This document shows positions 18,201-64,000 of a DNA stretch of 64,000 nucleotides, piece after piece; position 1 is the stretch's first letter; every line of letters begins with the position of its first letter. The position numbers and the translations under genes are program-made. The notes below the pieces were generated by a model, which was given only the letters and a program-made list of their open reading frames with translations, had not been told where the DNA came from and did not search any database. This stretch comes from Arenicola marina (lineage: Eukaryota > Annelida > Polychaeta > Arenicolidae). Location: NCBI GenBank assembly GCA_964019135.1, contig OZ025249.1, positions 30,455,759-30,519,758 on the forward strand. The letters run 5' to 3'.

Positions 18201-21200
18201 CTAGATTGTGCGTTTGCCGGTCAGTCTGCGTAATTTATTTCGTGCGCTGGAGACGAAAAGTGCTGCCCCCTGGAGTCGCGTTCAGACAGCCCGTGGTGTG
18301 TGTGTTTGATGTGGTCGTTACGCTTGGTCGGCCTGCCACACTGGCCCTGTTTACCGTGGTTCACTGACGCCACCCGGAATACAGCTCGGCGCCCCGGACA
18401 AACGGCCATGTGGGCCGCTTCGCCAGCCGGGGCCCAGGCACATAGGAGTCCAGCTCCACCAGGCCGTATCAGCTGGGACAGCATTCAATGAAGTATGTGC
18501 TGACCGAGATCTTCTCTGGGGAAGGAACAGTTGCCAAACAGACGGACGGGATTTATAGCTCACTGCTCGCGAAGACGACTCGGCGATGAGTTGCTTAATA
18601 TTGTTGTCATCGCCTACGGAGGTTTTTTTGTCAAGGGGCATAATGTGAGTTGTGGTGTCACGGAGATACAGCTTCTGGCCACCTGACAAACTCCAGAGGT
18701 AGCGGAGAGACGTCGTCAGTGTGACTTTGTCGCACTCACTGGTTGGCTGTGCGGAGAGACCGTCACCAAGAATCGCATAGACAAATACTCTCCAGAATCC
18801 GTGTTGACACACAGAGAGGTAAGGTGTGTGCCAGACTGATAGCGCAGCCCTCCCGAATATAGTCGTATATACCGAACGACACTATACCTCCCCTCCCCAC
18901 CCCCACCACCTCCACACACACCATGATGAGCCACGTGCTGGTGTTGGTTCTGGCGCCGCCACTGCTGCTGCTGCCACCGACACTCGGCCAGGATATACTG
19001 AGGGAGGCGGGCTGCAGTTTCCAAGGTTACGACGGCATCATCTACAACATCGGGTTCAGCCGAGAGGTGATCCAGAAGCCGTGCCCGATAGAGACCCTCA
19101 ACAACCAGTTCAAGGACAGCGACCGCCGGGTCCAGGAGCTGACCTATGAGGTCAGCCACCTGCAGGGCCTCATGCTGAGGGTGCTGGAGGTCAACGGGAC
19201 GGTCACCCAGCGCCTCGCCCAGCTCGAGGCCGAGCTTAGAGCCACGAAGGAGGCTCTGCGTATGTCCCAGGCAGGTATGATAAGTCGGGGAAGACTGACC
19301 GAGGCTTGGCGCCATGCAGGGGTCTGCCACTTAGTGTTAAGTCGTCGTATAGTTGGCTTTGGAAATAATCAATAGAGTACAATGCGATTTGTCAATTCGC
19401 ATGTGCTAAAGCGGGTCGCTGTAAATTACAAACTAAACTAGCCCTGACATTCAGTCTACTTTATATACTTGCAGATTTCGAGTGCTCAATGTTAGATCTA
19501 CATTTATATCTCCCAATTACTGCATTGGTCGTATATATAAATGTAGTGGTACACCCCTTTATGTTGCAATATCTTTTCTCCGTGCTTGAAGAGCTCAGTG
19601 TCTGATCATTGCATTTTATATCTCCCAATTATTGCATGTAACAGTAACTACAAATTCTGTATTTTATCCTTTTCTCGCACCGAATCATCCTTACCTTATC
19701 TTTGCCTTAAACGTTATCTTATCTTACCCCCACCCCATCCTCACCCAACCCCTCACCCCCATCCCGTGCAGCGGCTACGGACTGCCCACCCCTGTACGAC
19801 GTCCGGAACGACGAGGCGCGGTCCTGCTACATGTTCGTGGGTCGCGACCTCTCGTGGTATGAGGCTGAAGCGTTCTGCATGAGCACGGGCGGCCACCTGG
19901 TCGCCCTGGAGACCGAGGAGGAACAGACCTTCGTCGTCAACTACATACGCTCCACCAGGGGTAAGTGATCTCTGGCCTCTGCCAATGGGCAATGGTTCCC
20001 GCCATGACGATTACAAGTCACAACAAAACTAGTGACTTTTTTTAAATTTGACTGCGTACCAATATGATTTTGCGCGTAAGTATGCACTCATTGTTTTCCA
20101 AGCATTGTCAAAGATATTCGGCAAAGACCAGGAAAACATCGGGAAAACAATATAGAAAGACGCTACAGGGCGATAACAGTTAGATCGTCCACAGTTGACC
20201 ACATACCATGTTACGAACATTGTGTTCGTTCGTAACGGGAATCCCCCGACCTCTGTTGGTAAGCGGGCTGAGCTGTAGATCAACGGGTCCAGGGTTCGCG
20301 CCCTGGCGCCGGCAGCTTGAACCATCATGAGCATCATCCAACCCCATTTTATTTTTACCAGAGGCTTCTGGGCCCAAGACAACGTGGCGCGAAATAGTCC
20401 AAGCATGTGAAAAGCAAGTATGTATCTAAAATTAACGACTTTCAGTGATGAAACATTTCCCAGTATTCCAACTTCAAGATTGTCATGTCTCGGAGTGTTT
20501 CTGTCTCTTCCTATGCAGTGTTACCTGGCAACCACATGTGGACGGGGGGTAACGACATCGCAAAGGAGGGGAACTGGATCTGGGCGGGCATCAACGTGCC
20601 CTTTAACTTCACCAAGTGGCTGACGTACCCGCACGAGGTCGATGGCACTGTGCAGATGCCGGACAACCACCAGGACATTGAGCACTGCGTCCACCTCTTC
20701 CACTTGCACAACTACGAGTGGAACGACATCTACTGTGGCCTCAAGTACCACTTCGCCTGCGAGTACAAGCTCATCGGATAATCTCTAACGCTATTTACTA
20801 GCCGACTGACAACTCCGCCTTCCGTTCATCCAGTAGCAGTTCATGACCAGGTGCTTCGTCTTCTGAGACATCTTCTGTCAACTCAGACCAGACTAATATC
20901 GGTGCGTCTTCATGCTGCTGTTCGGGTCAAGTTCCCGGGCTCGTCTGCTTGGTGGTTGATCGGGTAGAACACACCAGATCATTAGTCTTTGGCGTCAACT
21001 GTTGGGGAGTCTTTGCCTGCCACATGATCAGTTATTTCTTCGGACAGAGCTTCGTCGCGGTATTAACAATGTTCCCCATGCGAATGCAAATCTATTTCTA
21101 TTGGCCACTGTCGCAACATTGTCGGTTGGATAACTTTGTTAACCGTCCAAATGAGACCTGAAATCATCGCCAGCAGGATAAAGAGAGATCACAAACTACC

Positions 21201-43463: not shown

Positions 43464-45377
43464 TTATTTTTGTTTCGTAACAATCTTCTTCCGGCGTAGA
43501 CAGAAGGGTAGGAATATCGGGTAAATTAAAAGACCCAAGAGTAGGCCGATCACGAGGAAGTTGCTAAGCAACATGAGGGCAGCCACGTGCGGGTTGGCGA
43601 CCACAAAGACGACAAGGAAAGCCACCTTCATGGCGAAGTTAGTATCCGGCTCAGTGAAACCGTCGAAGAAGAAAACGGTGGAAACGAGTAAAACCTGCCA
43701 GACAAACAACGAAGCGACAATGGCCACTTCTGTGACGCCGTACAGCATCTTCTTAACCCGAGACGCTTCCGTTATGGTGGCCAGGCGTTTCTCACACGTT
43801 GGGATTTTCTCGCGGGTGTACTCCAGAGAGTCGGCGACGAATTCGCCGTAGTTATCCGCCAGGTCCTTCTGAAACTGGCGGTTGCCGCCGATGTTGAGGT
43901 TGATAGTGATGAGGAGCTCGAAGATGGAGTAGATGTTGGCGCCGACGAAGAGTAGCACGTTCAGGTTCGGCAAGAGGATGAAGCAGATCATCAGGCAGCC
44001 GGATCGCACGGTCATGTGGTAGTCCCCCGATGTATCGTTGTCCCTGTTGACCTGCAGCCCGAACAGTGCCAGGAGCAGCAGCATGGTGACCAGGTTGCCG
44101 ACAATGGTGTGATAGGCGCGCGGAAGGATGTGGTCGGCAAGGGACCAGCGGCCACAGTATCCGGCCATCGCTCGCTGCTCCAGAGTCTCCTCAGGCAGAA
44201 ACACCTTGCGCAGATCCTTCATCAGCCGGTACAGCATGTACATCCGCACCACTTGGGTGTATATCAGCTGAGCGATGTCTAAGATGAGAAGGATAAGTTG
44301 CACCCAGCCGAATGGCTCGCTGGGGGTTTCGTACATCTTCTCCGTCGCAAACCCGACCACCGTTAGGATCAGCAAAGGGTATACCAACACCTCGCTTAAT
44401 AGGTTTTCGAAATACTGCATTTTTTTCAACCGCTTCTCGTAGTCTTTGGCCTGTTTGAACTTCTTACTCCTCCTGACCAGCCACACGATCCCAGTGACAC
44501 AAATTTCGAGGATGCCGAACACCAAGGCGGTTGCTTTATAGTAGAAAAATTCTGGGCCGATGACGTTGTCTGAGATCGCTACGGCAACGTTGACGAGGAA
44601 GACTAGGTTGACGAACACCTCGGTAAAAGTGTGCCACACTTTGGACAAAGGCACTTTGATGATGTTGTCGGCTAGTCGGATGGCGTTCTTGGCTTGAACC
44701 CGGTTCTCTTTATTCCGCAGGGTGTCAGATTTGTTAAATCCCAAAGCGGAGTTTAATTGTCCCAACAAGGTGGCGTTATCCCCCAACCCGAGACTTTCTT
44801 CTTCAAACTCGAAAGCTTCCTCCGCGTCAGACTCTCCCGTTCCCCACAGACTGCCCAGTCGCACCCGCTTCGGAACCGTCCACCGGAAGTCGCTGTGATG
44901 GCCGACAGGGGGCGTTTGTACGACCACGTGGCCCGAATTGAGGTTGATGCTTCCCAAAGATGACTCGGTGCCACCGTCGGGACTAGCGCGAATCACCTGT
45001 TCGGGCTCGAAGAGCACGGCTAACGTGGCCGATGGTCTGCCGCTGGTGTCAGTGCCGCTGCCGCTGTTGCTGGAGCCCGGTGCGGGGGAACCCCCAGTGG
45101 CCCGCGACCCGTGTGGGTGGAGGAGGTGTTGCGTGTATGGCGAGGTGCTCCAATCTAGCGGCTGCGACCGCCGCGTTCCCGACGTCTCCCTAGCTGGCGC
45201 CACTGTGATGACGCCAGATCTCGGCGCCGATGCGATTTGTCTTGTCTTCGAGTTTGACGTTTCCCTGACCAAGGGGTCGCTAGGATACGACGCCGTGGAG
45301 GGCCCGATGGTAGTCTGGTCCGATGACGTCTGGGACGCGACCTCCTCCCCCTCCTCGATGTTGGTGAGTTCAGACAT
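43464..45377 (-). CDS. Unrecognised polytopic membrane protein, single coding exon
   Basis: An uninterrupted frame of about 637 codons from ATG 45377 (AACATGT, A at -3) beginning MSELTNIEEGEEV. The frame extends about 25 codons upstream but without an ATG, so 45377 is the best start; a CCAG just upstream could end a 5' UTR intron. Residues 1-200 are polar, Ser/Thr/Pro/Gly rich and probably disordered. About eight or nine hydrophobic segments follow, for example VFVNLVFLVNVAVAI, ATALVFGILEICVTGIVWLV, VLVYPLLILTVVGFA, LVTMLLLLALFGLQV, LMICFILLPNLNVLLFVGAN, ASLFVWQVLLVSTVFFF and NFLVIGLLLGLLIYPIF. A basic tail (CLRRKKIVTKQK) ends it. I do not recognise the family; it could be a channel, transporter or receptor-like protein. 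Lack of introns beside intron-rich neighbours is notable. A minus-strand AATAAA lies at 43357-43362. Confidence 0.85.
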   Translation of the reverse strand: MSELTNIEEGEEVASQTSSDQTTIGPSTASYPSDPLVRETSNSKTRQIASAPRSGVITVAPARETSGTRRSQPLDWSTSPYTQHLLHPHGSRATGGSPAPGSSNSGSGTDTSGRPSATLAVLFEPEQVIRASPDGGTESSLGSINLNSGHVVVQTPPVGHHSDFRWTVPKRVRLGSLWGTGESDAEEAFEFEEESLGLGDNATLLGQLNSALGFNKSDTLRNKENRVQAKNAIRLADNIIKVPLSKVWHTFTEVFVNLVFLVNVAVAISDNVIGPEFFYYKATALVFGILEICVTGIVWLVRRSKKFKQAKDYEKRLKKMQYFENLLSEVLVYPLLILTVVGFATEKMYETPSEPFGWVQLILLILDIAQLIYTQVVRMYMLYRLMKDLRKVFLPEETLEQRAMAGYCGRWSLADHILPRAYHTIVGNLVTMLLLLALFGLQVNRDNDTSGDYHMTVRSGCLMICFILLPNLNVLLFVGANIYSIFELLITINLNIGGNRQFQKDLADNYGEFVADSLEYTREKIPTCEKRLATITEASRVKKMLYGVTEVAIVASLFVWQVLLVSTVFFFDGFTEPDTNFAMKVAFLVVFVVANPHVAALMLLSNFLVIGLLLGLLIYPIFLPFCLRRKKIVTKQK

Positions 45378-48300
45378 GTTATTGCTCCGCCTGGAACCAT
45401 ACAGTGCGCACAGTAATATTATGTATATTATGTCAGTATACGATGGTACCACGCATATTCAAGAAATGTGCTTAATTGGGCTTTATGTACCAAGGTGCAA
45501 AGAACATTATCTGCATCTGTGGGTATTGCGCGCTATAACGTGTGCCTAGTATTTTAATTAGATAAAGACTTCGAAATGTGCGTACCTGCGGGAATATATT
45601 ATTGGCTTTCCTTTCAGTTGCCCACAATGTGCGATACGTTCTGTAGCATGTCTGTTACAGAACTAACAACTTCATGTTGTTATATAGTACCTAGTTTATG
45701 TCTATGCGACAAGATGTTGATCATAATCATCCATGTACATATGCCTTCCCCCAGGGGGGTGGGGGCACCATTACACAGTTCTGGTGGGGGTGGGGGGGTG
45801 AGGGGGCACTATTATACAATTCAGGTGGAGAGGGAGGTTAATACCTTGGGTGTCTCGTGATCCCTGGGAGAGCGGACATTTGTGATAAAAAATGGTACAA
45901 CTGATATTTAAAAACTTGCGACGGGGTGGGGGGGCGACAATTTGCATCAATAAAACTGGTTTGCCAGGAAGGCAACCCAAGCGGCTCTGCATGGAGAGGC
46001 AACATAGAGCGGTTCAAAGGAAAAAAGGACGGGAAAATAGGGGGAGGGGGGCTTTACCGCGGAACCCTCCCAAACCCTGCATTGCATTAAATATCCCCCA
46101 TTTTTTCTAACCCTTTGTACCGATGTTAAATAAAATGCTATCTTATCTTATACACATATTATAACCTTCCCCCTATATAACTTTTGCCACTAGATCTAAT
46201 GCTTAATAACAATCTCAAATGACGACCAAGGTTAGGGTGATCGATCTTTATGATTGTATGCTCGATCGAGTGACCAGGGTCAAGCACCGGTCAGTGTCAG
46301 CGCGCCTGTCGCCGTTGAATTCACATACGGACCTCCCAGGAGAAGAAACTCATTCAGATCGTTCGTATCACGGATGATCACAAATAGCGTGATACAGGTA
46401 TTATATAACGTCACTACAGCGTCTAACAATGGTTCACAGGTTCCTCCATGGTTGTTCTTCCACGTTAGGGCGAACCAGTGCTTCAACATAGCTCACGTAT
46501 GACTGGCGCCTAGCTACCACTTACTACACTAATCCATTTCGTGAGCTATACCATGTAAAACAGGTCTTAATTATTAACGATAAAGAATATAAATTTTCTC
46601 GATTTTTCACGATGCTCCGTGTCGCTTTTTGGCTAAGTTCAGTGTCGTTTTTTTTTTGTAAAATGCTGTGTCGATATCGCTTTTCAGATCCTCAGTGTCG
46701 GAGCAAATATGCCATTTGTCGCCATTTACCCCTTCCAGATATGTATTAATGGATATCCATCCTTGACTCACCCTATGCCAAATGTTTAAATAGTTGTATC
46801 CACTGACTTCCTGCAGCTAGCTGGTCCTCCTCACTGATGATATTCAGTATAGTGGTCGTGCATCGGGCGACTATTTAAGTTTAGCCCATGCGTCTTCTCA
46901 GTTATTGGTAAGTACATTGAAGACGACGACACAATGGGTGTCAAAGGGAACCCGTTTTTTGTAAGTACAAAAGGGCCTCACTTTACGTGTTCCATGGGCC
47001 AGTGTAGGTTGGAGTGTCTGCTGCTAAAACACTCATCTTGGCGTCGTATTGCCCTTGGGCTGATCGACTGTCAAACGTTCTTCAGTTGGCAGTTCTTCAG
47101 TTGGCAGTGATGTTGGTGTGTCGTACGTTTCACTATTTCTGCCTCGACACGACAAGGCGGTCACAGTTGAATGCCTTAGCTAATCGGCCGCGGCAGCACC
47201 ATGTCATAAACGCAGCCCACCCGTCAATTTGTTGTGGTTACTGAGATCCCCAGTTGTTTGTAGCCGTCTCGGTCGACTGAAGATGGCGTCGATCCGCGAT
47301 ATGAATTGGGATCCAATTACATTCAGATCTCCGGCACTGCGTGTCAATATAAACAGGCAATATGTTCTGCCTGCTGGCGGGGAGAGTAAGGGACTGGAGG
47401 GAGGGGGGGTAGTATAGAAGCCACGTGCTAAATTGCTATTCATCGTTCATTTTATTGCGTTTAGTAGCACGCTTGAAAGCGTATAATTTAACCCCAGTTC
47501 TATGGCTGCATGACAGGCAAGATATCGGACAGGGCCCCCATCTACATTTGCCCGTCCTGCAGCCATATAACTAAGGATAGTTATTAATATGCTATATTTA
47601 TGGATGAACCAGTGAAAAGGGGCTAGTTGGGGGTGGGAGCACGGGGGAGGATTCTGACTGGTGTATGTCGTATATTGATGGATTATTATTACAGAATTAC
47701 ACAGCGTGTCACCTTATTGGGCCCAATGACAAATAGCAGTCATTAGCGTTGTGAAATATAATTATAATTTTCGTTGCTGGTGTTAGATCACATCCATGGG
47801 ATGAAGCATGGGTTGAGCCCATCGATGTTCCAAGTCTTCATCCCAAACTCTACTGAGGGATGGATTTGCATGTTATATTTATTATTATTTACTTTTATTG
47901 TTGATAGATTTGGCGTGTATTAATACATAAGTCTTTATATATATATAAGATCAACAAAATAGCATTTTCATTATTATGTTGTTTTTATTTTCCAACGATA
48001 TCATTATTCATAAATAATTGTATTAATCATTCTGCTAACCACTATCATATGTACAGACCATGGTCACAGAGCAAGGTCATGTCAATGTACAACCGGGTTT
48101 CTACGAAACGCCATTTCATAATTATTACGATCTGCATTCAGAAAATCGGCGGTTATCGTTAGTCGTATTAATTAATCATATACAAATATAAAATGATAGA
48201 AAATGTTAGACAGCCCCATACATGGCTTGACGTTCTTATTTACCAAACAAAAGGTTTTGGGTTTGTATGTGTGTGCGGTGGCTGGGGGCACTGATGCCTG

Positions 48301-50036: not shown

Positions 50037-53000
50037 TTACGAACCAAATTCGACAGTTTCTTGGGTGATTCGCTTGAACTCAAAGGATCCTCTACCGTCC
50101 ATGCTTAAGTAGAACTGAAATAAAAGATTCAACGTTATGTTTATTACTTGTAAGTACGGTTAATATGTTTTATTTCTTTTTCCTTTCTTCTTTCTACGTG
50201 TATTTAAACTGAAATAAATTTGGGGACTCCTCCTGACATATTTTGTTTAAACCAGGTGATATAAAATTTCCGGCTTGCAATATTCGACTTCGGTTTTCAA
50301 GCCAATCATTTCTATCGTTCTGGTCACGCAAACCTTGTTCATCAAACTCAAAGTAATATACTGATAACGTTAGTAGGGCCTACCATGGAGATTGGCTCCG
50401 AGTAAGGCTAATTCAGTAAAAACAATACTCCACAGGCTTTAGTTTTATTACTGGTATAATAACTAAAGAGATAAGTAAACGCCGACGTAACATTATAAGG
50501 ACCAAGGGCTTTCTTTCGATTGTGACCGTGACGGATCACTTTGGGACCTAAGGGTCACATGACCTCACCTCGTGGTGCTTCCACAGGGACTTCCGGTGAG
50601 AGACTGTGAACAGCGTGATCCCGACCTGGAGACACGTGGCACGGTACATTAACACCAACAGGGATCGTAATCAATTGTACATGGATATTGATCAATAATT
50701 GTACATGGATATTGATCAATAATTGTACATGGATATTGATCAATATTATTGTACACGGATATTGATCAATAATTGTACATGAATATTGATTAATAATAGT
50801 ACATGGATATTGATCAATAATTGTATTACTTGCACATAGATAATGATTATTTGAAGATGGATAATGATTATTGGAAGATGATTTTCAGTGTTTATTACGT
50901 TTAGTGAACAAACCTTGTTTGTTTGAATTAATTAGTATCTTGCATATTAATGCTATCAACTTCCCACGATTGAATTAACACTTATGGGGGACGATTATAG
51001 AATAGCAAGTGCTATTAGACATTCAGAGTTGTGTCACCGCGGTGGCCTATACCCCAGTACTAACAACGTACCTCCCTGCAGTGCTGGTACATGAAGCCCT
51101 CCACATCCATACTGACGGCGCTTGTACACTCATCCAAGATGGCGAACTGCGGCCGGTGGTAGAAGAGACGCGCCATCTGCCGGTCGACAGGACATAATTT
51201 AAATTTATGTTACATTATTAAACATTAGTATACAAACAATTTTCAGAACAGGTTACTCATTAATAATTTTTATGGTTAAAAGGCTTTCCTAATTCATAGG
51301 AACTTTTGCATGGCAAAAGCCGCAATGATAAATATATCATTAGGAAATATTTTCATAACAAACGCTTCCCGATATCCTGCCAGGTGTGTATTACGCCCAT
51401 CGAACATACCTCTAGCTGGAGGTTGACGTGTCATACGGGCTATAGCGCTTTGCTGGCCGCCACCGGCAAGGTGCATGCTTTTACTGGCGAAGCGTGGGAG
51501 TAAGAGAGGCAACAGGGAATCTTCAGCATCGGGTATGGCGGCAACATTGAACAGCCGCGATTACCATCGCCGAGAGCTTGTGTCCTGCCCCCACCCTCCC
51601 TCTGACCAACAACTCCATCACGTTAGAGTTCCCACAACGCCCCCCCCCCCACCCCTCCCCTCCCCCAACCACGACTCACTCACCGCCACTCGCTGTTTCT
51701 CTCCACCGCTCAACACGTCCATCCAGTCCTGTAACAAAATATCAGGCTGTCAATTCATAAATTCTTCCAGCTCATAGTGTACAGTATATACGCAACAGTG
51801 TACCCACTAGATACACATAAGTATGGAGAGGAGCTTTGTACACGAGAATAGTTGTTCGTATATCGTACCCGTCACCCTACTTACTCTAAAGACTGAAATA
51901 ACTATCACGTGACACGCGATAACCCACCTGCACGGAATCCCAGCCTCCCTCACGCTCCAGGATGTAGGCCAACTGGACCTGAAAAAGAAGGTCGTAACAC
52001 AAGTCAGTCATTAAACCTAGTCATACAACATTGGTTTACCAACATCTTTCAATGTAGTTTCAATAATATACCGGACACATCGCCTGATGTGTTTATAACA
52101 AGAAATGTTGCAGTGAATGCCGGATTTTACCAATCATCATATTCTAATGGCTAAGAAAAACAATGGAACATGTAGGACAGGCAGGTCTTATTCTATTGAC
52201 ACAAGAGATTCTGATTACATCTCCGCTACGAAAATGTAAGCGAACTCAGCTAAGCATTATTTGCGCACGTTAGAGCGGTTTATGCCTTGAAAACTTCATT
52301 GTATGATAACAATTTAACATTTTTGATATGTCCAACAAATGTACGAATACATAGAACACATATTTAGCGAAATATGTGGCTGTATTCCAAATATTCTATT
52401 TGAAAAGCAGAGGAGGTGAAAGCAGGAAATCGTTCCAAACATAGGCGGGGTTTAAACGAAAAAAAAAAATGATCTGTACTCGAGCAGGCTACCTCACAAC
52501 CATACTGACTCCCTCCCTACTAGATAAATGGACTAAATTTTAGAATGCGGCAACTATTACTGCCAACAATACAAGTACCGCAACAATAAAATAGGTGGAC
52601 GGAATGTAAGCAAGAAGTTTAAAGAAGGCAACCCATGCGAGTCCCTGTTGACGACCCTGCCAACGTACCTTATCTAGGATTTCCTCCAGGTCCTGGTCAC
52701 GGAAACCCCTCTTGAGCTGGTCGTCCTTGCTGTCCGGGTAGATGACTTGATCTCTCAAGGAGCCCAGTGTCATGTACGGGCGCTGTACACAAACAGTCCG
52801 ACAATGTTAGCGATACACGCCACGTTAACGTGTCTGGAACGCATAGCTCCTCACAGGTCCGCAGGGGTGACAGTCAATTAAACTTTGTTAGTTGTTGGTG
52901 CTGACTTCAGCAAGACGCTTTAAGATCTAAGGTAATATCGCGATAAGGCGAAGGGTCAATTTAGAGAGGATTTTTATCCGAGCGTTACGTCGCGCGTTTG

Positions 53001-56000
53001 AGGCGGACCAAGTAACCCACTAGACCACGGATGACCCGTACTTTGTTTAGTGCCCGCTTCATTACAACATTCAATACTCAATAGACCAAAAACAGCGGGT
53101 TGGGCGACAGACCAGATCATGGATGACGCGGCTCTCCGACGTCATGTGATTTAATATATCGTGTTACACGATTTCTTTGGCCACGTGATATGGGATATCA
53201 AATATTACGCACACATCAACACAATTTGGAGAATCATAAATAATAGACTAGCCGTCCCGCGAGCGGTCTAGCGTTCGTAGTAATAAACGAAAGAAATAAC
53301 ACTATGACAGTATTTAGGTTTATACGTCAAATAGTAGCAGGCAGAAGGTAGACATTGGGCAGAAATAATATCGATAATAATATTGACCGGGAGCTACTGA
53401 ATAACGGGACATAAATGTTAAAGATAATTTCAACATATATGATGATTAGAATTGTTTCTGTACGTCGGTCTTTAACGACACGCGTCCGCTCAGTTATTTT
53501 GCGCATGTTTGTTGATTACAAATGAATGTTATAATTTCAACATATACAATAATTAGAATTGTTTATATACATCGGTCTTTAACGTCACGCTTCCGGTACT
53601 ATATTGGTACAGATTGCATCTAGACATGTTGTTGTTACTCCAACTGAGATACATATACGCCATATACACATTCTTGTCAGCGTGCTTTAGCTGCAATTTG
53701 CGTATTCTGTACTGGATACAATAATACTTGAAAATTGTAGAGGCTCGGACATGCCACATGTCCATAAAAGTTGGCGAACGATAGCTGTTGTCGTTAGGTC
53801 AGTAGAGGGTACGAACAAAAACAGGAGTGCATAAAGCTTAAGTCTAGTGGGTGCCGGTGGGCGGGGGGGCGGGCCAGTAAAGCCGGAGTCTGATGAATGT
53901 CGACGGGGCGCGGGGCTGCAGGAGTCGGGTGGATGGGTGTGGGGGATGAGCAGAGAGGAGTCAATTAACGCTGGTTGGTGTGGGTGGAATTGGATACTGC
54001 CGTGACTGACGTTAAGAGAAGCGTATTATAGGTTTCCCGAGCAGAGTTTCCCGGGCAGAGTTCGTTCTCTTGCTACTAATGAGAAGTTGTGGACGCGAGA
54101 CAGCACGGGATTTGTTTGTTTTGATGACGGTTCGGGCGATAAGGCGTTGGGAGAAATATTATTACTGTTGACACCAAGCCAGGTAGCCCGCCGCAGGCGA
54201 TAGTATGCCGCGGGATAAGGTGATAAGCACCCAGCGATTGTGTTGACACATGCGATAGCTTTGACACATCTAAGAGCGGCGGCTGGATATTAATAGGTTC
54301 AAGGCGGCTGCTGATGCCAATGGGCTCTTGCATGCCGCGGCATAGTGGGACAGACAGCTTCATTTTATTAGTATAGATAGTGCGCATTGATAGCAGTGAC
54401 GGGAAACAGACGTTCCACCATGATAGGTTATTTCCGAGTACACGTGCTCCAGTAGCGTCCAGCCAGTAGCGCGAATGCTTCTCTGCACTGGGATTTATTT
54501 CCTTGAGGCTTTATATCGTGTCATGTTTATATCAAACAACGCGGCTACCACTAACCTGTGGAACGTAGAAGAGTTCTTTGCTGTCCGGTTTCGTCATTGT
54601 GCCTCCGAACAAGGGCCACAGCTAAACACCAACAAGCCAAGTATATAATTTATCCTTAAATTTTCGTCAGCATCAATACTTTAGACAAATCATGACAATA
54701 CGCTCGCGCTTTAAAACCGTTTTCGAAGCCATTTGTACAATATATGTCGCACAGTATAACCTATTTAAACAATAGACAATGTACATTATACAGTATACAA
54801 TGCACATTAATAGTCATAAGCAAAATAGAAAATGACGCATGTAGTGTACATTATCTGCACGGGGCAGACTTAGAGGGGCTGGTACTACATTACATTACTA
54901 TATGGCCTACTAACCTCGCCTAGAATCCTGAAGAGTGAACTCTTGCCGCAGCCGTTGGGTCCACAAACCAAGACATTATGACCTGAGTTGACCTGAAGGA
55001 ACGCAAGGCGGTCGTTGGTAAGGCGAAAAACAATAGCGCGCGGAAGCTCAATGCCATAGTCATATCACTGTCTGCTTACCATCACGTGTGTGGATAGCTA
55101 AATCACGAAAACTGTACAAGTATCTCGATGACTTCACACGCCACAAATGCAATCGAATTACCGTTATCTTTCAATCAGTGTTACACGAAACAATCGCATT
55201 TGTAGTGCATCAACAGCATTATTTTACCTCGAAAAGTGTTTACTATTACGCAGTGTACAGGGACGTACCTCGAAGTTGAGTTCCTCCACCAAGACGTCGC
55301 CGTTAGGCGTTACCAGAGGCACGTGTTCAAATCTGGAACAGAATATTCGTTGAAACACAGGATATCCTTTGGATATTTTAATACGATTTCTGAGGTTATC
55401 AGATACATACTTCTTTATCTTCCGATCCAATAAATATATAAGCTTAAAAGTTCGGAGTCACAGCTTTAGAAGCATTAAATGGCCATAGTTAGCACTAAAT
55501 AACCAGCAGATACAGGGTACAGTAACATTTGCAACATCATATTAACGGTTGGGGATTGGTTGGGCCATATTTAGTACGTTATAAATATATGATAGAAGTG
55601 CGCGCTGTGTCGGCTGTATGGCCACTATCAATGCGCAGGTTCATACATATTTATGAGCAGGAAACTGGGCCATCGGACCGGTCTGTATCTCTAACAGGCT
55701 AAACGTTAAAGAAACAAACGAAACCTTAAAGAGTTGGTTGATTGGATATTCAGGACGCTTTAACCACTTTGGGTCATATCGCGTCAATGGGAGAAAGAAG
55801 GGAGAGTGGAGCCATGTCCCCGGGGGTAACCCCCTACTCTTTACGAAGAAAGACATGGGATCTTTATCCTTCGACCACACAGACATGGCCACAGCAGGGC
55901 TAGAACTACCGATCCACGTGCCGTTAGGCTCGCAGGTGGCCAGAACACTCAATGAGAGCACTCTAGCCAACTGAGCTATCGCGCCGGCCCCCAAACAAAC

Positions 56001-59000
56001 CTTGAAGAGAAATACTCACTTGATTATGTGGTCCTTCTTGATGAGTTTTCCGCTTCCTGGCTTCAGATTGCTCTTCTTCGGGTTTTCTATGAAACAAGGC
56101 AAACGTCTGCGCGTTCATCACCCATTCAGAACTAACCAAATCGACTTGGGCAGAAAACCCTGCCATAAACCATTCATATTATTCAATCAATGGCGCCCTT
56201 GGTTGTTTGGATTAAGTAGGGCGCTTCTAACGCTAGTCATATCGTGACAATGGGAAGGGTCGAGGTAGAGATGTCTCCTGAAGTAACCCCCTACTCTTTG
56301 CGAAAGAACACACGCGATCCTTATCAAGCACAAACACAGAATAACACAAACTTAGAAATTAGGTTATTGGGGTTGAGTTCGACCCTACCACGTGGCGAGT
56401 CACCTGGGTGACCATAGGCGCATTGATTAGCCATATCAGCCTACTCACTCTTGTCTTCCTCCGCCGTCACCATGGTGCGGACGTAGCGACCTGCGTTGAG
56501 ATCATCCAGTACCTTCATGAACTCCGTGATGCGGGCCGTGAACCTGGCGACCAATGACACGTGACGATGGCCAGATTACACACATGATGGGGAAGGGTGG
56601 ACCAGCAGCAAACAGAGAAAGGGCGTAAAGCGCACCTTCGTAGGTTACAGCAGATAAACTGGATCAATCGTTCATGTTATAGAGCCCATGTAATACGTGA
56701 GCTATGCTGAACAATAATTCGCCCTAATATGGAAACACAACCATAAACTGACATTTATTTCCTGCGTGCGACCTTTTTGATTCTATTCCGCTTCAATATT
56801 CCGCTAGTGTCCTTAACCATAAAATTAAAAATTAAATATAAAATTACATTTCTCACATATATATGCCTTTACAACGAATGATACAGAGAGTGTCTTTTGG
56901 CTACATTCGTGCACTCGCATCCACGATAACTGTATGCCATTAGTAGTGATTGACCCCTGTTACTTTGATCCATGCGTGCGACTTACCCTGCCAGGCGAGT
57001 CATCTCTCTGCCCGCCAACACGATGCGACCAATGGCCTCCGCCATCTTCACCAACATCCGGCCACTCTGGTAGTAATCCTGACGAACACAGACTACCTAT
57101 ATAGCTATCAACGCCGTATACAATGCAGGTTAATGTGGATCTCATAAAAAAACCTTTTAATTATAATCATAATTATTATATATTTTTCAAAATGGGTTAA
57201 TTATAAGTTGAAAAATAAGATCATGGTACACACACGTCTAACTTGTTAAACCAATCTGACGTTTATATTGACAGTTCAAACATGCTTCGGACTTGATCAA
57301 TAAACCAAAGTAAAGACATTAATTCATGCTGCGCACTACCAGTATTAGAATCGCAAACATATAATACACATGCAGTGATGTTTGCATTGGCTTAGTTCTC
57401 AAATAATTCAAGAGACACATTATATAGATGATTAGGGTGTCTAAAGCGATGTTAAGAGTTAAACCAGGCCAAGGCATAATGCGGCAGAAGAAAAAAAACA
57501 TTGCTATGCATAAAGCGTTAATGGGAAGAACACATGCTAAAGAAGAAAAGAAATGAGTGATGCATCAAAATAAGGTAAATTATTCCACCAACATGCTGTA
57601 TTCACGCCCACCATTAAAAAATAGTTACATATTGAAAAAATTAAGATCTTTATCCTACAGAACCATGTGCCAGGCGAGAAAAAAACACACAAAAAAACGT
57701 TTATCATGCAGAACAAAAGTAAGGAGCACGTGATACAGCAAAATTTGTCATGTCGGGCAACTGGCGTTAATAGATATTATTTATACAATTTCCACAGTAA
57801 TTATAAAATTTCAATATAACAATTTTCATCCTGTTATTACATTTCCCTATTATATTTTCCTTCAAATGCAATCCCCACCAAAGCACGCAACACCACAACA
57901 TATGAAACCAAAAGATCGTAAATCTCATCATATCTTCTGTGACCATGCCGTTGACGCACAGACTAGTTTCACTGTATTTTTCACGATTTACTTATGAAAT
58001 AGGTGACTGTAGTTCGCAGTGCAAACTTTGCACATGCACTGCTTTGTAATGTTCATCCACATGAGCCAAAGTTTCGGGCCAGCAAGCGAAGTGTTATCTG
58101 CAGACGAGTTAACAAGACCCGGATAACTGTAGTGAGCAACATTCAATGGCTGCATCATGCACGAGCGGGAGAAGCGGCAAAAGCAGAAAGGCGTGTGTGG
58201 GGAAGGGGGGGGGGATTCAATATGGCCATGGCGGCTACTTCAAAAGGAACACAAGTGACAACAAGCGACAGTGACACGGGCGGCGAGCCACGTGCTGGTG
58301 GTACCTCCAGGAGTGCGCTGTGGCTACTGGTCAGATGACGTGGATCGGCCAAGTTTAGGAATGGGCGGCTAACGACAAGGTACCCTACGACGGTGGCGAT
58401 ATCTGAGGAGAAAAGAAAAAAATAAACATTACTGATAATAAGATGGTTTGAAAAATATCAGTAAACCGTTTCTGCATCAGTCTGAGACAACTGCTGCGTC
58501 AAAAGTCAAATCCGGCCAGGTCCATCACTCGCATGCCACATTAAGGGCTCTGAAACAACGAAAGCGCCTTCGAATCCTCGTCATAATAGTTTGGCCAAGT
58601 CGTGAGCAGAAATCTGTAATAGTTCATGTTGTTAATTATGTGGTCCATGCATAATTGTGACGACAATACGCACACTGAAAGTCAAAGATATAGACCGAGC
58701 AAGAGGCACTTATTAAAAAGCATAAGCGAGGACGAGGGCTAGGGCTAGAGGAGGGCGGGGGCGGGGTTTATATATGTGATCGGCATCACACATTTACGTT
58801 ACATTGTTTACCTCGAGTCTCTGTGACGATGTACTGTTGATGTAACGCGCTTCTGTCAAGTTCAAGAAGGGCCGACTGACCACAAAGAAGCCCACCACAA
58901 GAGCCAAGTCTGTGGCGACAAACACTTATCATTATCGCGCGAGAACCAAATAAAAATGCTCAACTTCAGCGGCATTATCGTTTTATCATTGACAGAATCT

Positions 59001-62000
59001 CTCCAGAGTAGGTCGCATTGAAGCTACAGAACAAACAATATATAGCTGACCACTATCTACAGGCGTGACCACTGACTACTGTTTCCGAAACTTCACTCAG
59101 GACCTTTTTATCTGGTTATGGCGAACGATCAATATTACGAATGGAAATTGCAACTTACAACATTGTAAAGCAAAGTTAAGTCCAAGTTCACAGCTGTATG
59201 TTATTGACATATGAATGTGTACCATGGTCTGCCATACACATAGGTCATACACAAAGTGTTGCTTCCTAAGAAAAGGTTCACGATGAACTTACATTTGGCA
59301 ATGATGTTGTCTACCATACCCATGGAAAACCGGAAAAAGATGAAGCTCTGCAAGTGGTCCACCTTGAATAGCAATGAATTATAACGTTAATTAATGAAAT
59401 ATAACGAAATATCAACAATTATTGCTTTTCCAATTTCTTTAGATCAAGAAACTCAAAAAAAGTACAATTTGGTCGATTGACTTTATGGGAGCATTACCCG
59501 TATCATTCCATATTCCCATAATAAAGCGGTAGTTTGAATGACAAAGCAGCGTTAGGTTATGTTACGTTGTTGGCAAAAAGACCTTAATGAAATGGAAATG
59601 AACATAATTCACCATGTGAGCCAGGGATCAATCTGAAAATAGCACAAAAATATATTAAATTAAATAGTAAACATGTTCCTATTTTGCTACACATCCTTAC
59701 CAGTTTCTGGAAAGTTGACATGACTATGCCTTGTTCCTTTCGATTGCCTTGGTAGAAGGCAATTTCCTCGCTGAAAGCAACACAAAATGAATTGCTTAAA
59801 AACTGAAGAAACAGACTCCAAGCGATCTGGCGCAAATCACACAGGGGTCACGTTTACGGCCTGCAGTAATATTACCCGTGTTAATGCAACATTTTTCGTG
59901 CATCTACCGCAACACATATTAAAATTCTTTAGCATAAAAACCAAAGTGGAAGTTTCATGTGGATCGATGTGCCGCTGTTGCGTGATCACTCCCTGGCATG
60001 TGATATTAGGCTATATACATCATCATTACTACAAGGAAGTGGTAGTCACCTGTTCGTGATGAGTCGCGAGTGGACATAACGAAGCTCTCCCTCTCGCCTC
60101 TGTTCAATCACAGTCATCTTGCCGATTGGTCGGCGCAGTCTATAAACAGAACGTTACGTCAGAAGAGAAATGGCGACACTAACAATACAATTATACAAGT
60201 GTCAATTTCTAAATGATGAAACGACAGCGGGTAAACCGTATTAATTATCTCTAATATAAGCATCTACATAGATGGTACAAGCACAATAACAATACGGAAT
60301 TAACCTATTTAACACAGCATTTTTTGGTCAATAAAAAAAGTCTTCTACTTGACAAATTACACTTCTTTTCCAGTACTTAACACATTCAACACAGACACAT
60401 TTAAGGGACGACCTCACGCAACATTATTTCGTCCCACGTTTTGTGACTAACTAAACAGGTTAGAACACCTATTACCTTGTCAGTATGAGGCCTGAGAAAA
60501 CCAGATAGCCCAACATACAGCCGGGTCCCTGAAATAACAAATAACACGTCTCATTAGTATGCATGCCTTTGTGCAACAAATTTGAAAGAAGCACGAGTAT
60601 ATTTATATTTCTCATACATATGGCTGACAGTTTAAGATCTTTAGTTGCGATGTAAAGGAGGTAATCCGGTCAAGCGGACATGTTATTGTGAGAAAATAAC
60701 TTACGAAGTCGGCAAACTTTCCATTTAATCCTTGTAGACAGGTATCGGCGTTCACCAACCTGAGCTCCTATTGCACTTGTCAGCTTGGTGGCATAGATAA
60801 CAATATCTAACGTTGGCTGAAAAACCGGTAAAAGGAGACCATCAGAAAGAAATAAGAAATTAAAAGGTGTGTATTGTAATGGACGTGTTTCATACAGTTT
60901 TGTACACAACACACAACATTCATTTCCCGATTTTAAATACAATAATACCCAGAAAACAACCCTCAAGAATACCCACCTTGCTGAGGTTTGAGTACAGTTC
61001 TCCCACACTTTCGGAGAACTTCTCCACGTCCTGAGTAAGCAGTTGGTCCGCGTTGGAAATCCTGTTGTCGAGGTTACTCATTTTGTAGTAAGTAAAGCTC
61101 CTGGAAATGGAGAATATACAGAACGATGCTAGCTGTGAAAGTGCAATGGCAGACAAAAGAAACACAAGTCTCCATTCGTTAGATTTTTGAGTTCCAATAA
61201 CAACGCAGGTTTGAAAATGAGTACAAGGCGTTACCTATATACTTCATATACAACATAAAACCAAAGTAAAAATTTTTTCTAGTATCTCGACTAACAGTTG
61301 TTAATACGTGTGTGTGCTTGATGTGTTTCATAAGTTGGACATATGGCCTCTCAGACTCACTGTAAGTACTGCTTGTACAGATGAACACTGAGACGCGTTC
61401 GGAATCGAAGCTTCAGCTGATTTAAACCATACTGAAAGAGGAACAATGTTACATTTACATTTGATTCAAACCACACTAAAACAGGAACAATGTTACATTT
61501 ACATTTGATTCAAACCACACTAAAAGAGGAACGATCTTACATTAACAACTTATTCAAACCATACTAAAAGAAGAACGATGTTACATTAACAACTGATTCA
61601 AACCATACTAAAAGAGGAACAATGTTACATTAACAACTGATTCAAACCATACTAAAAGAGGAACGATGTTACATTAGCAACTGATTCAAACCATACTAAA
61701 AGAGAAACAATGTTACATTTACAGCTGATTCAAACCATACTAAGAGAGGAACAATGTTACATTAACAACTGATTCAAACCATTACTAAAAGAGGAACAAT
61801 GTTACATTAACAACTGATTCAAACCATACTAAAAGAGGAACGATGTTACATTTACAGCTGATTCAAACCTGACTGAAGAGGAACAATTTTACATTTACAA
61901 GCGAAGAGGACCAGTTACAAATGTCTTTAAACATCTGCCCCCAACACACCCCAAACAGATATTTTCTCATCTTGCAAATCTCCATAACTTAGCAAAACGA

Positions 62001-64000
62001 TAGGTCATCTCACTTACCTTCAACAGGTTGTTGATCAATGAGATCTAAATGGTCCATATCGAAATAAAGAAAACACAAATATATAAAGAAATGTCACATT
62101 GTTTTCTTAGTGTTATTCATTCAGAAATATTTCCTTAGCAAATACAAATCACGAACGATGGGCGATTTTAGTCGACTAGGCCCCGTAGCCGACTAAACCA
62201 TGCATGTGAAATAGGCCACAGGCCTAAATGTCAATTAATATCGGTCTGTCTATGTTTGAAAAACATCGCACCTTTTCGCGGTTGTACATATATCAAAGGT
62301 AATATCTGGGAATCAATAAAATGTTAACCGTTATTTCTGGACACAGGTACCTTAGTAAATTGCTAAAGTCTGGCACACTTACAGCCGGCATGGCATAGAT
62401 GAATTTGAACAGGTGACTCCTAAAGAGACCCATATTCCTTCCGATGATGGCACTAGATTTAAGAAAAGGAAAATGGATAATCTATTAAGACAGTGTATGT
62501 CTAATACCATTATTGATATTATATAACAAATTAATATTTATATAAATGCATAAATGTCGGAACATTAATACTGGCTACTTATGACAGAGATTTCACCTTG
62601 GGATGTGTCGTAAACTTAAATGAAACATATTTCATCATGTCATCATGGTCATTTCAAATGTTAACAAACATAGTGTGCAGTTTGTTCCGTCATATATCTC
62701 ACCTTTCGATTGCAGTGCCATTTTGGATCATCCATACGTCACAATATGTTCGGGCTGTTAGGGCTAAAGCCACCATAAGCACATACCATCCCTACAACGA
62801 ATAAACCACGAATTATTTCAACTTCTATGCTACTTTAAAGGCCAGCATTCGGGTAAATGAATTCTTAAAATTAACATAATATACCCACAGAAGAGTAAAT
62901 ATTGAAGCAATCTGGGAGGTTGTACAAATTATGTGGCTCATAATTTGGTAACTGTGGCACGTTTTAGTCTCTCTTTTAGAAACTCGTACAGACACAGGCA
63001 TCAGCTCTGGACGACCAAAGCCGTAATTTTCGCGCCAAGTGACGTAGATGCAGATGCAAATATTCAGAGTGTTTTTGAGAAAAGCGGTAACCAGTATCTG
63101 TTCTATGTGTACAAAGGGGAACCTACATTTACGTCACGAAACGTCGAATGATACCCTCTCACTATGTTTTGATGTTTTAACGCATCATATGGGATAATGG
63201 CCAAGATGTCTAATAGTGCTCCCGTTTAAAATTACCGGGTATTATGTTTTGATGGCGTAGTATATTGGGATTAATATCTTGAGTGTGCCTTTGGACCTAG
63301 GAGCTGGACTTTAATTTCCCATTGTTTCTATAATTGGTAATATATTATAATTGGGTCAGAAGGCCCAGTGTGCGACAACACTTTGGTGTTGGCAAACCAA
63401 TTAGTAAAGATACTGTTCGGTCATAGATTGGGACAAACAGCAGACAACTGGATTACCATTAGATGTTATGACTCATAACATAACTTATAAATAACGCAAG
63501 AATGAAAATCTGGTATATTTGGGGAGTAGACAGTCCCATACCTCTTGAGTAAACCATCCTGGTACAAGGATCTTCAGGATTTTGAGCAGACGCCTACAAA
63601 TAACAAACGTTTTTAAATCTGTAATACCAGTTTTCATGTCAGTATAAGTTAATAGATGACACAACTGGTGCGCAATGAGTCATGGTAAAAAATCATGATG
63701 AAAATACAGCAAAATAAATAAATGATAATTACTTACGTTATAATTAATATAACTAAGTTTGAACGATACATTAGTTAATTTTTATTACATCACGTTTCAT
63801 TTCAGTACCGGTATATGTTAATAGATGACACTACCGGTACTGCATGGTGAGAGATGAATCATGGTATAAAAATGATGGTGAAAATATCACAAAATAATGA
63901 TCATTAGTTTAATGAAGTATTGATAACCAAAGTACACAAACCGAAAGAAAACTAAATCCACAGCAGCACGATCTTTCCTCGTGGAGTTCTGGTAAGAGAT
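50037..64000 (-). CDS. ABCD3: Peroxisomal ABC half-transporter ABCD3 (PMP70), N-terminus off window
   Basis: Imports long and branched-chain acyl-CoAs into peroxisomes. Exons in transcript order: 63942 to about 63990 or beyond, 63542-63593, 62703-62791, 62383-62452, 62018-62044, 61361-61431, 60977-61100, 60760-60816, 60476-60528, 60050-60139, 59701-59770, 59293-59362, then 58812-58909 or 58305-58402, 56987-57078, 56449-56543, 56020-56086, 55269-55332, 54915-54992, 54556-54621, 52669-52782, 51928-51978, 51684-51728, 51072-51176, 50569-50625, 50037-50114. All phases agree. Landmarks: [25 protein letters not shown], the EAA-like [11 protein letters not shown], Walker [20 protein letters not shown], signature LSGGEKQR, Walker B FAILDE, H-loop TVSHRKSLW, and C-terminus TVEFGS. 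It tracks human ABCD3 more closely than ABCD1, 2 or 4. The first visible exon has a weak donor (CG|GTTTGT) and its upstream end is uncertain. Confidence 0.96.
50672..50822. repeat. Tandem repeat, about 24-27 bp x 6
   Basis: Six imperfect units of TTGTACATGGATATTGATCA separated by AATAA-like spacers, in the last-but-one ABCD3 intron. Confidence 0.9.
53417..53590. repeat. Direct duplication of about 58 bp
   Basis: TAATTTCAACATATA...TAGAATTGTTT...TCGGTCTTTAACG occurs at about 53423 and again at about 53530 within an ABCD3 intron. The large intron 52783-54555 otherwise shows only G-rich simple sequence. Confidence 0.75.
55735..55990 (-). mobile_element. tRNA-derived SINE, family 1, full-length copy
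   Basis: On the minus strand it starts with a tRNA-like head (GCGCGATAGCTCAGTTGGC, box A near 55969-55979), a box-B-like stretch in GATCGGTAGTTCTAGCCC, a body with AAAGATCCCATGTC and GGGGTTACCCC, and a 3' tail complementary to TTGGTTGATTGG at 55735. It shares the body with copies at 25832-26052, 56195-56440 and 4555-4740. It lies in an ABCD3 intron. Confidence 0.85.
56195..56440 (-). mobile_element. tRNA-derived SINE, family 1, decayed
   Basis: A diverged copy: tail complement TTGGTTGTTTGGATT at about 56198, then CATATCGTGACAATGGGA, GTAACCCCCTACTCTTTGCG and a degenerate head. It sits in the ABCD3 intron between exons 56020-56086 and 56449-56543. Confidence 0.7.
58305..58402 (-). CDS. ABCD3: ABCD3 alternative exon, copy A
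   Basis: A 98-nt exon with a CTCAG acceptor and GAG|GTACCA donor encoding (Y)[17 protein letters not shown] then [15 protein letters not shown]. This copy is the closer match to human ABCD3 ([21 protein letters not shown]), so it is probably the ancestral form. It recodes the same last membrane segment and following loop as copy B, 409 bp upstream in transcript order. Confidence 0.9.
58812..58909 (-). CDS. ABCD3: ABCD3 alternative exon, copy B
   Basis: A 98-nt exon with a CCACAG acceptor and GAG|GTAAAC donor encoding (Y)[17 protein letters not shown] then [15 protein letters not shown]. It is homologous to 58305-58402 (18 of 32 codons encode the same residue) and has the same phases. It lies first in transcript order. 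The conserved half keeps the [12 protein letters not shown] core; the second half diverges from human ABCD3. Either copy alone joins neighbours in frame; both or neither shifts the frame. Confidence 0.85.
61415..61905. repeat. 44-bp minisatellite built from an ABCD3 3' splice site
   Basis: About ten imperfect 44-45 bp units continue directly from the 5' edge of ABCD3 exon 61361-61431. On the minus strand each unit carries (C)TTTTAG|TATGGTTTGAATCAG, matching the true acceptor and first codons TTTCAG|TATGGTTTAAATCAG. The rest is spacer containing TTAATGTAACATTG, followed by the pyrimidine tract. Confidence 0.9.
63629..63905. repeat. Direct duplication of about 100 bp
   Basis: A block with GTTAATAGATGACAC, ACTGG/ACCGG, GAGTCATGG/GAATCATGG and AATGATNATTA occurs at about 63640-63730 and 63805-63905, in the first visible ABCD3 intron. 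Confidence 0.75.

Follow-up and report, generated by a model that had tools for sequence, protein, structure and literature searches.

The ABCD3 gene in the window

The stretch of DNA analysed here (the window) comprises 64,000 nt from the polychaete Arenicola marina and contains, on its minus strand from ~62740 to 50037, most of the ABCD3 (PMP70) gene. The following exons were placed outside the exon 10 to exon 12 region, which is listed in the next section:

59701..62740, minus strand: range of the upstream ABCD3 exons, placed by open frame and human alignment; it begins with an exon-1 piece that ends at 62703, its start not set
62452-62383, 62044-62018, 61431-61361 and 61100-60977, minus strand: upstream exons, one open frame, gap-free against human
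60816-60760, 60528-60476, 60139-60050 and 59770-59701, minus strand: further upstream exons, on the same basis of open frame and human alignment
56449..56543, minus strand: exon 13
50037..55332, minus strand: range of the NBD exons
55332-55269, 54992-54915, 54621-54556, 52782-52669 and 51978-51928, minus strand: NBD exons, matching PF00005
51728-51684, 51176-51072, 50625-50569 and 50114-50037 (with the stop), minus strand: further NBD exons, open to the stop

All 21 ABCD3 exons with both ends set are preceded by AG and followed by GT. Each half of the gene, membrane and ATPase, forms one open frame, and the last exon runs to a stop after ...QETVEFGS. Within the window, neither the exon linking the two halves (between 56449 and 55332) nor the start of exon 1 or any earlier exon was identified, and for want of the linker the halves were read and scanned separately. 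Pfam analysis of the separate halves detected PF06472 (ABC_membrane_2, 6e-85) and PF00005 (ABC_tran, 1e-18). The membrane half aligned without gaps to residues 114-415 of human ABCD3 (220/302 identical) and scored 474 bits against this protein, 232 against the ABCD entry 9wfu, 169 against ABCD1 and 75 against ABCD4. Judged by domain content and similarity, the gene is an ABCD3 ortholog, with both domains present and nearer to ABCD3 than to other ABCD members.

Several other features were recorded in the window. A 44-bp minisatellite of 11 copies (61417-61900, minus strand) is made of units that carry variant copies of the 3' splice site and opening bases of exon 4. A loose acceptor-plus-exon pattern matches eight units in addition to the real acceptor, which has CAG where the eight have TAG, and the repeat is possibly an array of decoy acceptors. 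A 24-bp tandem repeat of 6.3 copies (50673-50825) lies in the ABCD3 intron just upstream of the penultimate exon. Away from the gene, a single frame of 664 residues (43464-45458, minus strand) has several stretches that by eye look membrane-spanning, and a 639-residue part of it gave no Pfam match at E 0.001. On the plus strand, the region 18863-20781 contains a C-type lectin piece (20452-20781, PF00059, 3.6e-06) and, upstream of it, a frame (18863-19375) with a start that by eye resembles a signal peptide and with no Pfam match above the cut-off.

Exons 11A and 11B: frame, homology and constraint

The membrane half of the gene contains two versions of exon 11, arranged as follows in the order of transcription:

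59293..59362, minus strand: exon 10, upstream partner of the pair, ending in phase 1
58910..59292, minus strand: intron upstream of 11B, 383 nt
58812..58909, minus strand: exon 11B, the alternative copy, 98 nt and 33 residues (Y shared with exon 10), flanked by AG and GT, open in the frame of the gene, 20/33 identical to human residues 323-355
58403..58811, minus strand: intron between 11B and 11A, 409 nt, GT-AG
58305..58402, minus strand: exon 11A, the canonical-like copy, 98 nt and 33 residues (Y shared with exon 10), flanked by AG and GT, 26/33 identical to human residues 323-355
57079..58304, minus strand: intron downstream of 11A, 1226 nt
56987..57078, minus strand: exon 12, downstream partner, on the TM6 side

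A reading of the sequence alone had proposed two 98-nt exons at these positions, entered in phase 1 and left in phase 0, of which exactly one must be used. Positions, lengths, phases and the AG/GT flanks of both proved exact, and the frame argument held: exon 10, either 11A or 11B, and exon 12 form a single open frame, and using both copies or neither leads to a stop. When 11B is followed by 11A the stop falls after five residues of 11A, and when both are skipped it falls directly behind the last lysine of exon 10. The excerpted text of PMC3228551 defines mutually exclusive pairs by length, splice sites and frame, homology, and the presence of one copy per mRNA; 11A and 11B agree with this definition in length, in compatible splice sites and frame, and in homology. 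The best reading of the locus is very probably a mutually exclusive exon pair in ABCD3, in which the use of one copy per mRNA would follow from the frame logic.

In tblastn searches of the window with 20 of its exon peptides and the human exon-11 peptide, 11A and 11B matched each other (E=1.4e-8) and no other match was better than E=0.042. The only other repeated exon piece was the start of exon 4, copied in the minisatellite. A 10-residue peptide between 11B and 11A (58568-58539, minus strand) was considered as a third exon-11-like copy and rejected, since 18/300 shuffled introns scored equally; it may be a decayed copy or chance. The bare 33-residue peptides of 11A and 11B gave no Pfam match. 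Within the membrane half, the A and B isoforms scored 285.3 and 279.8 bits, respectively, against ABC_membrane_2, and 473.9 and 457.8 bits against human ABCD3. Scans for relatives covered viral contigs (8, 5 and 86 pattern matches) and contigs of prokaryotic genomes (92 and 163); none was confirmed, which is what an animal gene would lead one to expect.

The two copies are alike at 54/98 bases and 19/33 residues. We give an assembly or haplotype artefact a negligible probability: no point in its favour was found, the copies are just 55% identical in DNA, and the 250-nt flanks on each side align no better than shuffles. Identities at codon positions 1, 2 and 3 were 20/32, 25/33 and 9/33, the third being about at chance level, and the comparison gave a pS of 0.83, a pN of 0.31 and a 95% lower bound of 1.39 for dS. 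pN was 0.15 in the first 18 codons and 0.49 in the last 15, which indicated tighter conservation of the TM5 half and more freedom in the loop.

These values were compared with simulations of neutral change. Starting from A and applying the 44 base differences observed, at least 19 residue matches occurred in 1/200,000 draws (5e-6), so the likeness of the copies is not due to chance. A is identical to human at 25 positions, and B keeps 17 of them. Neutral drift of B alone at 0.69 changes per site (half the dS lower bound) retained 17 in 6/50,000 runs; the result was 0/50,000 at 0.8 changes per site and 0.28% at 0.5. At only 0.3 changes per site, 12% of runs kept 17 residues, so the case for constraint depends on the age read from synonymous sites. 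Synonymous saturation together with the kept residues marks B as a constrained coding exon, and the data fit an old duplication with both copies held under protein constraint. It is very improbable that B is the decaying remnant of an exon duplication and A the sole copy in use. Such a relic would account for the weak acceptor tract of B and for A being nearer to human (26/33 vs 20/33), but B has an open frame, intact splice dinucleotides and residue constraint at synonymous saturation.

Splice sites and the choice of copy

All scored splice sites are GT-AG, and the two copies have opposite strengths. Exon 11A has a pyrimidine tract of 17/17 and a donor of 2.93, the weakest among 21 scored, and 11B has a donor of 6.56 and a tract of 9/17, a lowest value that two other exons share. 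The weak 11A donor and the poor 11B tract mean that either exon could be little used. These opposite strengths make protein-mediated repression the first candidate for enforcing the choice, for which U2AF-regulated tandem exons offer a model (PMC5224494, in the part consulted).

Each mRNA would carry 11A or 11B, and the 98-nt length would purge errors. Under the established rules of nonsense-mediated decay, mRNAs that have an early stop and downstream junctions are degraded. Here, skipping or double inclusion puts a stop well ahead of the last junction. By these rules such mRNAs would be degraded, and frame-based decay may act as a safeguard to the repression. The same early stops, given by double inclusion and by skipping, suit another explanation, that both exons are functional and not strictly exclusive, B or double inclusion being a poison event that lowers ABCD3 via decay. 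It would also agree with the human-Drosophila comparison of PMC5740500, the available portion of which reports, for 20 human genes with frame-incompatible validated MXEs, 18 clusters with multiple MXE-joining reads. We consider it quite improbable: a poison exon needs no homologous, residue-conserved coding, but B keeps the 17/25 residues common to A and human at saturated synonymous sites.

Other ways of enforcing the choice between 11A and 11B were examined. Steric hindrance or a distant branch point needs a very short intron or a long AG-free zone; the intron between the copies has 409 nt, and the first AG upstream of 11A lies at -30, which argues against a distant branch point. In a docking/selector test, gap-free pairing between introns was not above chance, the best helices being matched or exceeded in 88, 74 and 22 of 100 shuffles. 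For gapped whole-intron duplexes, evaluated in this single genome, the counts were 4, 53 and 36 of 60 shuffles, the 4/60 case being the introns that flank 11B. Four inverted pairs lie within 57000-59400. A 15-nt pair (57218-57232/59216-59230) was rejected as a docking site as it is within chance (22/100 shuffles), and so was a perfect AT-rich pair of 12 nt (57180-57191/58447-58458), which is not the best helix of its introns.

The swapped segment

Exon 11 corresponds to residues 323-355 of human ABCD3, which cover TM5 in its later part and then the loop leading to TM6. The excerpts of PMC11369193 consulted describe human ABCD3 with phytanoyl-CoA. According to them, the TM5 contacts of the CoA head group are Tyr323, Thr326 and Tyr330: Tyr330 makes a stacking contact with the adenine, Thr326 bonds to the CoA 3'-phosphate through its main chain, and Lys322 bonds to the diphosphate. 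Substrate-stimulated ATPase is lowered by Y330A and abolished by Y323A. Residues 339-346 are missing from the ATP-bound model, and the loop is probably flexible.

Form A keeps Tyr323, Thr326 and Tyr330, and form B keeps Tyr323 and has Leu326 and Phe330; for ABCD1, counting by eye from the shared Lys-Tyr gives Ser and Leu at the positions matching 326 and 330. The two copies differ at 14/33 positions: 324, 326, 330 and 331 in TM5, and ten in 341-353.

The reading of the sequence alone had also suggested a possible difference in substrate preference between the two isoforms, and this part stood only halfway. The exon does cover the CoA head-group contacts, but the acyl-tail contacts given in the same excerpts of PMC11369193 (Val215, Ile374 and Val375) sit in exons 6 and 12, are conserved and are common to both isoforms. 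Since the CoA-contact residues change and the acyl-tail contacts do not, an effect on CoA head-group handling or gating is likely, rather than on acyl-chain choice. Form A retains the human-type CoA contacts, and form B, with Leu326, Phe330 and an altered loop, should show changed affinity or turnover in binding or releasing the CoA head group. What the sequence shows is the layout of the pair, its logic in frame and the constraint on each copy; we infer that both isoforms are expressed, that they exclude each other in RNA and that the choice between them affects transport.

A rather unlikely alternative, which overlaps with this explanation, accepts the pair as real and places the difference between the isoforms in targeting or in the dimer partner, not in transport. 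It would suit the concentration of differences (10/14) in the loop at 341-353, and a study cited in PMC11369193, going by its title, found that the hydrophobic regions adjoining TM1 and TM5 matter for PMP70 targeting; on the other side, the CoA contacts Thr326 and Tyr330 also change, and B retains the hydrophobic TM5 stretch. If both forms are made, one gene would give two peroxisomal acyl-CoA importers differing at residues that touch CoA, and tissues could tune peroxisomal entry. Such natural variants at Thr326 and Tyr330 are testable in the solved human structure.

Relation to known tandem exons

Tandem homologous exons are a known class of alternative splicing, ABC transporters included. 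ACOX1 is a soluble oxidase and no transporter, and the choice between its exons 3a and 3b has an effect on chain length. Like the ABCD3 pair, these are tandem homologous exons, in peroxisomal beta-oxidation, at the step after import (PMC5224494); Acox1 splice forms are treated in PMC8919083 (both sources in part). The adjacent alternative exons 3A and 3C of KHK change fructose affinity by tissue, as stated in the portion of PMC7360681 consulted, where ABCD3 appears only as a marker protein; KHK is a soluble kinase and an unrelated gene. OGDH, a metabolic gene, also has tandem homologous exons (4a/4b), whose exclusivity comes from branch points near the donor according to the excerpted text of PMC7969005, whereas the AG at -30 and the 409-nt intron argue otherwise for ABCD3. 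Among ABC transporters, the accessible text of PMC9741552 describes tandem homologous exons in human ABCC9, Drosophila mrp and C. elegans mrp-1, which belong to another subfamily and whose events are called unrelated to each other. ABCD3 is not mentioned in the main texts of PMC5740500, PMC9741552, PMC4465641 and PMC7561204, and in the part seen of PMC8773931 it is named once, among genes aberrantly spliced in tumours.

The closest case is human ABCD3 itself. The remark that no such pair was known in ABCD3 of model animals had to be revised, since human ABCD3 has published equal-length exons used interchangeably, one of them a heart and skeletal-muscle exon with RNA-seq support (PMC4878813, 2016, as excerpted). 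Both cases concern the same gene and swapped exons of equal length, homologous in each pair to the same part of ABC_membrane_2. They differ in that the human pair has RNA-seq support and ours is read from the genome; the excerpted text of PMC4878813 gives neither position nor sequence of the exon, which may or may not correspond to exon 11. One event becomes more likely through the agreement in gene and domain. In the portion of PMC9741552 consulted, 21 human tandem-exon events are cited as having a counterpart in invertebrates and 236 are analysed, different sets whose ratio is only a rough guide. We tentatively propose, at somewhat less than an even chance, that the A. marina pair and the human heart and muscle pair go back to one ancient event, with two interchangeable TM5 exons since early bilaterians that would yield two acyl-CoA importers differing in the CoA contacts (Thr326/Tyr330 vs Leu/Phe) and in the loop. 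If so, an overlooked muscle isoform would have been conserved for hundreds of millions of years.
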